From Verrucomicrobium sp. BvORR106 (GTDB taxonomy: Bacteria; Verrucomicrobiota; Verrucomicrobiia; Verrucomicrobiales; Verrucomicrobiaceae): a stretch of DNA of 64,000 nt. Both the position numbers and the translations under genes were made by a program. The notes under the pieces are model-generated. The model saw only the letters and a program-made list of their open reading frames with translations, made no database searches and was not told where the DNA came from. The stretch is taken from contig NZ_BATR01000112.1 in the NCBI RefSeq assembly GCF_000739655.1, positions 1 to 64,000 of the forward strand, given 5' to 3'. Numbering within the stretch: the first letter of the stretch is position 1; every line of letters begins with the position of its first letter. Below are positions 1,905 to 47,723 of the stretch, piece by piece.

Positions 1905-2294
1905 CTACTCCTTGGGAATCTGCGTCCAGGCGTGTTCCTTCCGCTCCAGGGTGAAGTGAAATTTCTCGCCTTCAAACTCGGTAACCAAATCTAGGATGAG
2001 CTTCTTTTCTGATTGCTCGATGATGCGGGCAGTGATGCGTTGCTGCCCTCCATCACCAGGCACATAGATCTGTTTTTTCTCGGGATCGAACTGGATGTAT
2101 CCTTTGATAAGAAACTCCACACGCTGAAGGTAAGTGAGCTCGAAGAGTTGCTGCGGGAGGGCGAGGTAGATTTCTCCCAGACTGGTGAATTCGTAACTGG
2201 TCGTCGCAAGGAAATTGTCGGGCAGCGTTTCCGCCGCGGACACCATCGGGGCAGTTGTCAGGAAGAGCGCAAGGAGCAGAGGGGAACGTCTCAT
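1905..2294 (-). CDS. small secreted protein of unknown function
   Basis: A 129-residue protein with a clean signal peptide (MRRSPLLLALFLTTAPMVSA, then AETLP). The mature part is about 108 residues, mixed beta-like, with the periodic phrase FEGEKFHFTLERKEHAWTQI near the end. No family was recognised. It is the last gene of a leftward group with the genes at 2355-2972 and 3022-3339; about 60 bp separate it from its neighbour and the 3' end faces the convergent sulfatase-fold gene across 34 bp. Secretion is inferred from the signal peptide; no catalytic motif is visible. Confidence 0.6.
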   Translation of the reverse strand: MRRSPLLLALFLTTAPMVSAAETLPDNFLATTSYEFTSLGEIYLALPQQLFELTYLQRVEFLIKGYIQFDPEKKQIYVPGDGGQQRITARIIEQSEKKLILDLVTEFEGEKFHFTLERKEHAWTQIPKE

Positions 2295-45940: not shown

Positions 45941-45970
45941 TTGAACACACGGGATAGGAGGCACTCTAAT
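45941..45970 (+). promoter_or_regulatory. promoter of sRNA copy 1
   Basis: TTGAAC (45941-45946), 18-bp spacer, TCTAAT (45965-45970). The predicted start near 45977 falls just ahead of the first hairpin. Confidence 0.65.
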
Positions 45971-45976
45971 CTATCT

Positions 45977-46120
45977 GTAGTGTTGTGTGAGTGATTACCA
46001 ACACTGCTGTCTTGAGAGTGATTGGTTGTTGTCAATCAAACCCGCGCAAGCGGGATATGTGTTGAGGTTGATGCCAAAAGGGCTGGGCGAATGGGAGTTC
46101 GCCCAGCCCAACTCTTTTTT
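45977..46120 (+). ncRNA. structured small RNA, copy 1 of a tandem pair
   Basis: About 144 nt between a promoter and a strong terminator. Four hairpins in order: AGTGTTG/CAACACT (45979-45985 with 45999-46005); GATTG/CAATC (46020-46024 with 46033-46037); CCCGC-GCAA-GCGGG with a GNRA tetraloop (46041-46054); and the terminator stem. A second copy at 46255-46397 differs at four positions before the tail. Two of them form a compensatory T-A to C-G change in hairpin 1, and one turns a G-C pair into G-U in hairpin 2. That supports RNA structure over coding. A GTG frame (45987) reads through, but it runs through the terminator hairpin. No known RNA family was recognised. Confidence 0.75.
46080..46120 (+). 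terminator. terminator of sRNA copy 1
   Basis: GGGCTGGGCGAA (46080-46091) pairs perfectly with TTCGCCCAGCCC (46098-46109) around a 6-nt loop, followed after a short AACTC by six Ts. Confidence 0.85.
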
Positions 46121-46218
46121 GGGGATGAGTCACCAATCAAGAGGGTGGTGCTTGTCCGCGGGGAGCGAGACCGTCTGGAGAGAACTGTGAAATCTCTTAT
46201 CTGACAATTTGGGATTCT

Positions 46219-46247
46219 TTGAACACTCTCCATCCTACCCGTACTAA
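46219..46247 (+). promoter_or_regulatory. promoter of sRNA copy 2
   Basis: TTGAAC (46219-46224), 17-bp spacer, TACTAA (46242-46247). The hexamers and spacing resemble those before copy 1, although the spacer differs. Confidence 0.6.
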
Positions 46248-46254
46248 CTCTACT

Positions 46255-46397
46255 GTAGTGCTGTGTGAGTGATTACCAGCACTGCTGTCTTGAGAGTGAT
46301 TGGTTGTTGTCAATTAAACCCGCGCAAGCGGGATATGTGTTGAGGTTGATGCCAATAGGGCTGGGCGAATGGGAGTTCGCCCAGCCCAATTTTTTTT
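46255..46397 (+). ncRNA. structured small RNA, copy 2 of a tandem pair
   Basis: Near-identical twin of the RNA at 45977. Hairpins: AGTGCTG/CAGCACT (46257-46263 with 46277-46283, the compensated pair), GATTG/CAATT (46298-46302 with 46311-46315, one G-U), the same GCAA-capped stem (46319-46332) and terminator. It is 278 bp downstream of copy 1 in the same direction with its own promoter, so it is a separate gene rather than a processing product. Possible roles include a trans-acting regulator pair or a protein-binding decoy; the conserved unpaired segment TGCTGTCTTGAGAGT between hairpins 1 and 2 could be a seed region. Confidence 0.75.
46358..46397 (+). terminator. terminator of sRNA copy 2
   Basis: Same 12-bp stem as copy 1 (46358-46369 with 46376-46387), followed by AA and eight Ts. 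Confidence 0.87.
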
Positions 46398-46457: not shown

Positions 46458-46649
46458 ATGAAACTTACCCCCGTTATTTTTGCATTCACAGCGCTGTTTG
46501 TTCAGGCCTCTTGTACCACGAGTCCCCATGCCGGGGATATTGTCTCTGAGAAGGTTGTCCACTTTGCGGGGAAAAGGTTTGTGCAGCAGCGCATTGTGCT
46601 GACGACCGATCCCTACGAAACGGAGCTTCGCTCGATCCAGATCCGCTAA
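46458..46649 (+). CDS. small exported protein, possible lipoprotein
   Basis: 63 residues from MKLTPVIFAFTALFVQASCT. The hydrophobic start and a Cys at residue 19 in VQASC suggest a lipoprotein, though the -3 Gln is atypical. The remainder (GDIVSEKVVHFAGKRFVQQR, then IVLTTDPYETELRSI) is beta-like. It begins 60 bp after the second sRNA terminator. No family was recognised. Confidence 0.45.
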   Translation: MKLTPVIFAFTALFVQASCTTSPHAGDIVSEKVVHFAGKRFVQQRIVLTTDPYETELRSIQIR

Positions 46650-46673: not shown

Positions 46674-47528
46674 TCAGGGGCGCCCAGCTCGCACCACCTT
46701 CACCCAGGTGGTCTCACCACAGTATGCAGCGGCCTTGGCAGCCAGGGCTGCTGCATCTGTTTCTGACTGTGCTACCGCAAAGACGGTCGAGCCAGAGCCG
46801 GACATGAGGGCGGCGTGAGTCTCCACCTGGTCCAACAGCCACATCTTGAGCGTTGGCAGCAGCGACCATTTTTCAAACACAGGGCGTTCCAGGTCATTCA
46901 CCATGAGCCCCCAAGGACAGATTTGCGGGGCGTAGAGCACTCCTTGAAGCTGGGAGGAGGTGCTCCACTGCTTGTAAGCCCACGGGGTGGGGATGCCGAA
47001 GGGCGGCTTGATCAGCACCACCGGTAGTTGCCAGGGGAAATCTACCGCGGTGAGCACCTCGCCACGTCCAGTGGCATCGCAAACAGCATCATACAGGAAG
47101 AACGGCACGTCAGACCCCAGCTGGGAGCCCAGGGTGACCAGCGTTTCCTGGGAGAGGGGATGTCCAGCGAGCAGGTTGAGCCCGCGCAGCGTCATGGCGG
47201 CATTGCTGCTGCCGCCCCCCAGCCCGGCTCCATGGGGGATCCGTTTTTCCAGATGCAAGCTCCAGGACTGGACCGTCCCCGTCGCTTTCTCGAAGGCGCG
47301 CACGGCCTTCATCACGAGATTCGTCTCATCTGTGGGCAGGGACGTGTCGGTGCAGGTCAGCTCGCTTTTTCCAGCAGTTGCTCCCTCAGAGAAGGACAGG
47401 GTGTCACTCAGGTCCAGCGGGCAGAGGCGGGTGTCGAGAGCATGAAAACCGTCCTCCCGCTTGCCCAGCACCCGCAGGTGCAGGTTGATCTTGGCGGGGG
47501 AGGTGAGCTGGAGAACAGGTGACGACAT
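46674..47528 (-). CDS. ispE: 4-diphosphocytidyl-2-C-methyl-D-erythritol kinase
   Basis: A 284-residue GHMP kinase of the non-mevalonate isoprenoid pathway; it phosphorylates CDP-methylerythritol. The first motif is LTSPAKINLHLRVLGKREDG with FHALDTRL, the ATP loop is IPHGAGLGGGSSNAAMTLRG, and the C-terminal MSGSGSTVFAVAQSE is the third GHMP motif. Start 47528 (MSSPVLQ) fits the family; the frame continues to 47627 without support. The upstream region shares a gap with the divergent metalloprotease gene. Confidence 0.95.
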   Translation of the reverse strand: MSSPVLQLTSPAKINLHLRVLGKREDGFHALDTRLCPLDLSDTLSFSEGATAGKSELTCTDTSLPTDETNLVMKAVRAFEKATGTVQSWSLHLEKRIPHGAGLGGGSSNAAMTLRGLNLLAGHPLSQETLVTLGSQLGSDVPFFLYDAVCDATGRGEVLTAVDFPWQLPVVLIKPPFGIPTPWAYKQWSTSSQLQGVLYAPQICPWGLMVNDLERPVFEKWSLLPTLKMWLLDQVETHAALMSGSGSTVFAVAQSETDAAALAAKAAAYCGETTWVKVVRAGRP

Positions 47529-47723
47529 TACCTTCGTGAATACGCGGTTCAGGCCTCTGGTCAACGAGGATGCTTTCCGATGCGAATGTTCAAAAAAGCC
47601 AGACGAATTATCCAAAAAACTTGTCAAATTCCTGCTTATTCAAGTAGCCTTGGCAAAAATTCACATGGTCCCTAGAGGAGGTTCCATGGGGCGGACATTT
47701 GGCACGTTTTTGTCATTCACGTC

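Follow-up and report, generated by a model that had tools for sequence, protein, structure and literature searches.

A tandem pair of candidate small RNA genes in Verrucomicrobium belonging to a structured RNA family conserved across Verrucomicrobiaceae

Several bacterial small RNAs (sRNAs), such as Qrr, AbcR1/2, and OmrA/B, exist as near-identical copies with distinct promoters; some of these copies are arranged in tandem, and most are Hfq dependent. RepG of Helicobacter is a trans-acting sRNA from a host without Hfq and pairs via its terminator loop. The overall layout of GcvB consists of hairpins separated by single strands, with a terminator. For the R1 region of GcvB, one study (PMC3879156) describes a conserved, GU-rich sequence that lacks structure and has CA-rich targets. 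For the PVC group (Planctomycetes, Verrucomicrobia, and Chlamydiae), a review gives 8 distinct annotated sRNAs, compared with 345 in Proteobacteria (PMC9029176).

Here, two tandem units are described in a 64,000-nucleotide stretch of DNA from Verrucomicrobium sp. BvORR106, referred to below as the window. Throughout, f1 denotes the window's family, Verrucomicrobiaceae, and f2, f3, f5, and f6 denote other families of Verrucomicrobiales; G numbers are sampled genomes (G000 is the window's genome), L numbers are loci, and R1, R2, and R3 are covariance models. Like Qrr, AbcR1/2, and OmrA/B, the units are near-identical copies with distinct promoter-like elements, but, unlike those sRNAs, the window RNA has no Rfam match. 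The likeness to RepG would be that of a trans-acting sRNA in a bacterium in which Hfq found no match; the terminator loop of the window RNA, however, forms a short, tetraloop-like turn and differs from family to family. With GcvB, which is enteric and Hfq dependent, the RNA shares hairpins, conserved unstructured GU-rich stretches (described for R1 in PMC3879156), and a terminator, whereas it differs in phylum and motif sequences, in the lack of an Hfq match in its own genome, and in that no targets were found. Furthermore, the Rfam covariance model of GcvB matched neither the window nor 12 related loci.

6S RNA (RF00013) is likewise a small noncoding RNA found in this bacterial family. Identity with 6S was rejected because RF00013 has no match at these loci and 6S sits elsewhere in relatives: eight f1 genomes carrying the present RNA have a 6S match at another site with an E value of 0.001 or better, three of them over the Rfam cut-off. 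At E 0.001, 6S was found in several sister genera but not in G000-G004; its absence from the window's genome is weak evidence because 61 of 176 candidates were scored, and a divergent 6S may be there in G000-G004.

The preliminary description knew of no RNA family with this layout, and Rfam 15 agrees: neither the window nor any of 12 related loci contains a match at a family's gathering score, and a known Rfam family was rejected. A permissive scan gave chance-like matches, for example, to mir-133; no published account of the RNA was found in the open-licence PMC literature. The RNA is best regarded as a predicted sRNA family that is new but of a known kind, and it stands out for the depth of its conservation in a phylum for which few sRNAs are known.

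Organization of the two units

The units are encoded in a genome of 8.69 Mb in 209 contigs (Table 1). Pfam domains identify the left neighbor of the pair as a DUF7133 protein and the right neighbor, on the opposite strand, as a GHMP kinase, taken to be ispE. The nearest named relative in an ispE search was Verrucomicrobium sp. BvORR034, with an IspE that is 90% identical.

Table 1. Coordinates in the window of the two predicted sRNA units, their elements, and the adjacent ispE-like gene
Feature	Coordinates	Strand	Basis
Copy 1 promoter-like TTGAAC-N18-TCTAAT, A-rich tract upstream	45941..45970	+	sequence read and script
Copy 1 predicted sRNA	45977..46118	+	5' end placed from -10 box, 3' end from T-run
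Copy 1 5' hairpin, GUGA (GNRA) loop, compensated pair 45983-46001	45977..46007	+	fold, covariation, copy comparison
Copy 1 motif 1, conserved single strand GUCUUGAGAGUGAUUGGUUGUUGUC	46009..46033	+	family conservation, unpaired in consensus
Copy 1 middle hairpin, GCAA loop, covarying stem	46041..46054	+	covariation, RNAalifold
Copy 1 motif 2, conserved single strand GUGUUGAGGUUGAUGCC	46059..46075	+	family conservation
Copy 1 intrinsic terminator hairpin (GGGA loop) and T-run	46080..46120	+	hairpin 46080-46109
Copy 2 promoter-like TTGAAC-N17/18-TACTAAC	46219..46248	+	sequence read and script
Copy 2 predicted sRNA	46255..46397	+	both ends predicted
Copy 2 5' hairpin, GUGA loop	46255..46285	+	fold, covariation
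Copy 2 motif 1	46287..46311	+	family conservation
Copy 2 middle hairpin, GCAA loop	46319..46332	+	covariation, RNAalifold
Copy 2 motif 2	46337..46353	+	family conservation, 14-mer scan
Copy 2 intrinsic terminator and T-run	46358..46397	+	hairpin 46358-46387
ispE-like gene, GHMP kinase domains, converging on the sRNA pair (not part of the RNA)	46674..47627	-	Pfam, synteny

Sequence reading and a script both located the two tandem units of the preliminary description, each ∼142 nt long with a promoter-like pair of boxes and a terminator. The -35-like TTGAAC of copy 1, at 45941, is followed after 18 nt by TCTAAT at 45965, and that of copy 2, at 46219, by TACTAA after 17 nt, the register of the preliminary description, or by ACTAAC after 18 nt. 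A generic promoter scan of the window reported neither site. The terminator stems, followed by T-runs, have the 12 Watson-Crick pairs originally described, plus a closing U-G, in both copies (13 counted by the scan). Beyond the promoter boxes, the sequences surrounding the two units are unlike, as judged by eye.

Over 104 aligned bases, the copies differ at the four sites first noted: T45983/C46261, A46001/G46279, C46037/T46315, and A46078/T46356. Copy 1 has U-A at the pair 45983-46001 where copy 2 has C-G, and the compensation is therefore real; the GCAA hairpin is, as stated earlier, unchanged between the copies. A claimed conversion of G-C to G-U at C46037 is weaker than first described, since the helix is predicted only in a single-sequence fold, where it extends into conserved motif 1, and the consensus is unpaired there. 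Folding z-scores are -7.0 for copy 1 and -7.9 for copy 2, with 0 of 200 shuffles as good in each case. The pair is more than a product of chance, and conservation is stronger evidence of this than folding.

Conservation of the RNA family and its structure

A blastn search with copy 1 matched 32 of 57 genomes, comprising 32 of 36 in f1 and 0 of 21 in other families. The covariance-model check on related genomes suggested in the preliminary description was run with R2 on 386 genomes sampled from the order and detected the RNA in 64 of the 68 belonging to f1; a candidate sRNA of this breadth offers a handle on RNA regulation without the usual chaperones, and the covariance models make the family easy to annotate. 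Among these 64 genomes, two clear copies were found only in G000, G001, and G003, which belong to the window's genus, and an incomplete fourth genome of the genus, G002, has one copy.

Outside f1, R2 gave weak matches in seven genomes (E values of 0.0004 to 0.005; five in f2, one in f6, and one in f5), and in each of the seven an exact copy of the 14-mer GUGUUGAGGUUGAU precedes a hairpin and a T-rich end. The first 14 nt of motif 2 are identical in some relatives from four other families. When this 14-mer was used for scanning, 97 of 386 genomes matched, and reading 70 extra or repeated loci yielded three new noncoding candidates, L208 and L209 in f3, the latter weak (E values of 0.024 and 0.062), and L215 in f6; the rest were known copies, apparent coding sequence, or unclear. 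R3, a broader model with some f2 members in its training set, was run on 387 genomes sampled from the phylum and added seven further f2 genomes (E values of 2e-13 to 2e-8), and all seven have AAGGGUGAACAGCAGUUGUC in the place of motif 1. Motif 2 is loose in f2: across nine loci read, GGUUGA occurs in five, the motif is altered in L238 and L241, and none is recognizable in L239 and L240. Genomes of g12, within f2, matched neither model (at least 20 without a match in the R3 search), and an R3 search of 57 loci returned only L215, L209, and one terminator-only match. A hit outside the order, in G555 (E value of 0.006), lacks the motifs and was taken as a chance match; second matches in G206, G024, and G212 (E values of about 0.001 to 0.002), also without motifs, were not counted as copies. 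The copy in G130 is degraded. Comparison shows that the predicted RNA family is kept across Verrucomicrobiaceae and has relatives in four other families of the order.

Additional copies were observed elsewhere in the order. The f5 genome G039 carries a second tandem pair of the family at L150 (positions 1727-1868 and 1930-2071, minus strand). In two f2 genomes, a second, more diverged copy occurs at a distant locus (L246 in G084 and L245 in G110), and these weaker copies nearly keep AAGGGUGAACAGCAGUUGUC.

Family members share the layout hairpin, single strand UUGAGAGUGAUUGGUUGUUGUC, hairpin, single strand GUGUUGAGGUUGAU, and terminator hairpin. In 35 sequences aligned to R1, 92.4% of cells are paired, compared with 35 to 48% in slid controls, and in a 25-row alignment (20 rows outside f1, of which L242 is doubtful, plus 5 f1 rows), 91.1% are paired, compared with 37 to 46%; because the alignments were fitted to the structure, these counts lean toward it. 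In the 35-sequence alignment, both sides vary in 25 of 28 pairs, the covariation score is 0.592 versus 0.057 to 0.106 in slid controls, and 0 of 500 shuffles reach any of five measures. RNAalifold, run on the same model-made alignment, returned 24 pairs in the same three hairpins, 22 of them with double changes, and a consensus in which both motifs are open. The hairpins were misaligned in a first MAFFT alignment (A1), on which RNAalifold gave 11 pairs, and realignment used a model built from 11 members (A2; middle hairpin misaligned in five). The terminator helix is 99.5% paired, and the weakest helix, the inner part of the 5' hairpin, is 78% paired. Loops are often, not always, GNRA: GUGA, GCAA, or GCGA in the 5' hairpin and GCAA or GAAA in the middle hairpin, with GGGA in f1 terminators. 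One locus, L031, is missing the middle hairpin. Comparison thus shows three predicted hairpins under selection, with two intervening stretches that stay unpaired and are strongly conserved.

A TTSAA-type box, 16 to 20 nt, and a CTAA-like box precede 34 of the 35 family sequences, where 1.2 are expected from shuffles, the pattern having been written after the sequences were seen. It fits 3 of 20 divergent loci, and 12 more have the first box alone, at a distance that does not always fit. As is typical of trans-encoded sRNAs, the units have, judged from sequence, their own promoter and intrinsic terminator, as well as a conserved structure without a conserved reading frame. Homologues, covariation, conservation of the promoter-like and terminator elements, and loss of the frame in most relatives all support the original proposal of a tandem pair of structured small RNA genes; each unit looks like an independent gene for an uncatalogued, ∼142-nt noncoding sRNA. 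The two copies differ consistently at six alignment columns in each of the three species of the genus, and the duplication therefore predates these species. Columns 20 and 40 of A1 change in both copies of one species, which would be a faint hint of gene conversion.

Candidate modes of action

The best reading, to which we give a probability of roughly one half, is by analogy a noncoding trans-acting sRNA that exposes two G/U-rich motifs for GcvB-like antisense pairing without Hfq. The RNA would be transcribed and act in trans, with the hairpins holding open the two motifs; C/A-rich sites in several mRNAs would be their imperfect pairing partners, and pairing would alter mRNA translation or stability, as for GcvB R1 but with neither Hfq nor ProQ involved. 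In the genus, the second copy might raise dosage or permit separate regulation, a proposal made because the promoter regions of the copies differ and their cores are nearly the same.

Target searches were made outside the sRNA genes. When up to three mismatches were allowed, the 18-nt motif 1 complement occurred at 55 places in 15 genomes, versus 54 for the reversed control. For motif 2, the exact 11-nt complement occurs at 62 places in six genomes, versus 8 for the reversed control. However, 41 of the 62 places are read as Ile-Asn-Leu by an open reading frame, and the codon-like variants with ATC or GTC replacing CTC occur at 114 places together (mean, 57 each), and therefore motif 2 has no special excess. 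A loose ribosome-binding-site tag marked start codons internal to long frames and is given no weight here. Long antisense targets were accordingly rejected for both motifs, neither of which exceeds its fitting controls; pairing might still use seeds that are short or imperfect. The strongly conserved stretches, of ∼22 and ∼14 nt, are longer than an antisense seed would call for and count against antisense action.

The same 18-mer, three mismatches from the motif 1 complement, was observed at G001:C80:9139-9156 and G003:C1:3364790-3364807, a possible shared target site; it is not among the G000 places listed.

Known RNA-binding partners were sought in the window's genome, the sole genome searched, where no match was found for Hfq (PF17209), CsrA (PF02599), or ProQ (PF04352); among 14 control genomes, these models matched 5, 3, and 1, respectively. 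Roles as an Hfq client, a ProQ client, or a CsrA sponge were each rejected on this ground.

Alternatively, the RNA could bind a protein or the ribosome, with a protein recognizing the hairpin-spaced single strands and being titrated or modulated by the RNA, as CsrA is by sponge RNAs and RNA polymerase by 6S. We consider this possible, at clearly less than even odds. The unpaired motifs are long and strongly conserved while the hairpins drift yet stay paired, and L031, with no middle hairpin, still has the larger part of motif 1 and a version of motif 2; moreover, the target searches showed no excess, and protein binding therefore stays a candidate. Against it, CsrA has no match in the window's genome, and motif 2 is loose in f2, where 5 of 9 loci keep GGUUGA. 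A more specific version, to which we lend rather little credence, holds that this is a core regulatory or housekeeping RNA of Verrucomicrobiales, duplicated in Verrucomicrobium, the two motifs of which bind a dedicated protein or ribosomal partner. If true, it would play the part of 6S or CsrB in a lineage where Hfq, ProQ, and CsrA are not detected.

Gene neighborhood and coding potential

The genes next to the RNA differ between families. Among 30 f1 loci (L002-L031, some incomplete), ispE converges on the RNA in 17, and DUF7133 is present in 8; ispE also adjoins the RNA, on the converging strand, at the f6 locus L215. Eight ispE loci from named contigs (L042-L049, labeled Verrucomicrobium, Prosthecobacter, Verrucomicrobiaceae, or Verrucomicrobia) include R1 matches in L042, L048, and L049, and no RNA was found near ispE in L043-L047, some of them incomplete, with R1 or R3. 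Because five of the eight lack a nearby RNA, the RNA is not always beside ispE. In f2, 10 of 14 loci have a SurA/rotamase gene downstream of the RNA in the same orientation, at a distance of 91 to 352 nt; the L151 member of that gene has SurA-like N-terminal and rotamase domains.

Two other genes were observed near the RNA in f2: an rRNA adenine dimethylase-NUDIX fusion gene at L235-L237, L239, and L240 (domains in L237) and nadA at L151 and L155.

These arrangements bear on whether the RNA is a cis element, either a region at the 3' end of ispE on the other strand or the leader of a downstream gene, which we judge improbable. The terminator facing ispE in f1 and the upstream position in f2 speak for such an element, but the two placements differ between families, the promoter and T-run share one direction, and some f1 ispE loci have no RNA. 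In the f1 ispE loci, the next gene converges and therefore cannot be led by the RNA. As the motifs persist while the neighbors change between families, action in trans fits better than a leader.

Still less probable is a Shine-Dalgarno mimic, in which GAGGUUGAU would pair with the 16S rRNA 3' end and hold 30S subunits. GAGGU-U-GAU can pair with AUC-ACCUC with one bulge, and, against what we take to be the sequence of the 16S 3' tail, a few members beat nearly all shuffles (9 and 6 of 300 as good for the two L150 copies, 15 of 300 for L009, 25 of 300 for L015, and 26 of 300 for L208). Pairing in most members tested, however, is no better than in dinucleotide shuffles, with 143 of 300 as good for copy 1 of the window, and the mimic was rejected for this reason.

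Least credible of all is a short peptide gene in the GTG frame, rejected because a start with an open frame is found in just 8 of the 34 scored rows, seven of them from genera g1 and g2. The frame is open in both window copies, and the synonymous changes of the preliminary description hold for two of the three within it, the third, A46078T, replacing Lys with Ile; on the other hand, it extends through the terminator and has no Pfam match. Across the 34 rows, 21 are open through motif 2, only 8 of these also with an in-frame start, and the spacing between motifs is spread over the three frames (17, 10, and 7 rows). Homologues that kept the GTG frame and lost the stems had been named as evidence against an RNA, and the opposite was seen: stems are kept and the frame is not. 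The RNA is most probably no peptide gene and probably not a leader.

A separate 63-amino-acid reading frame with a lipoprotein-like start lies between copy 2 and ispE (46458-46649, plus strand). It belongs to no Pfam family and has no match in the other f1 loci examined, and it is 78% identical in G001 and 73% identical in G003.
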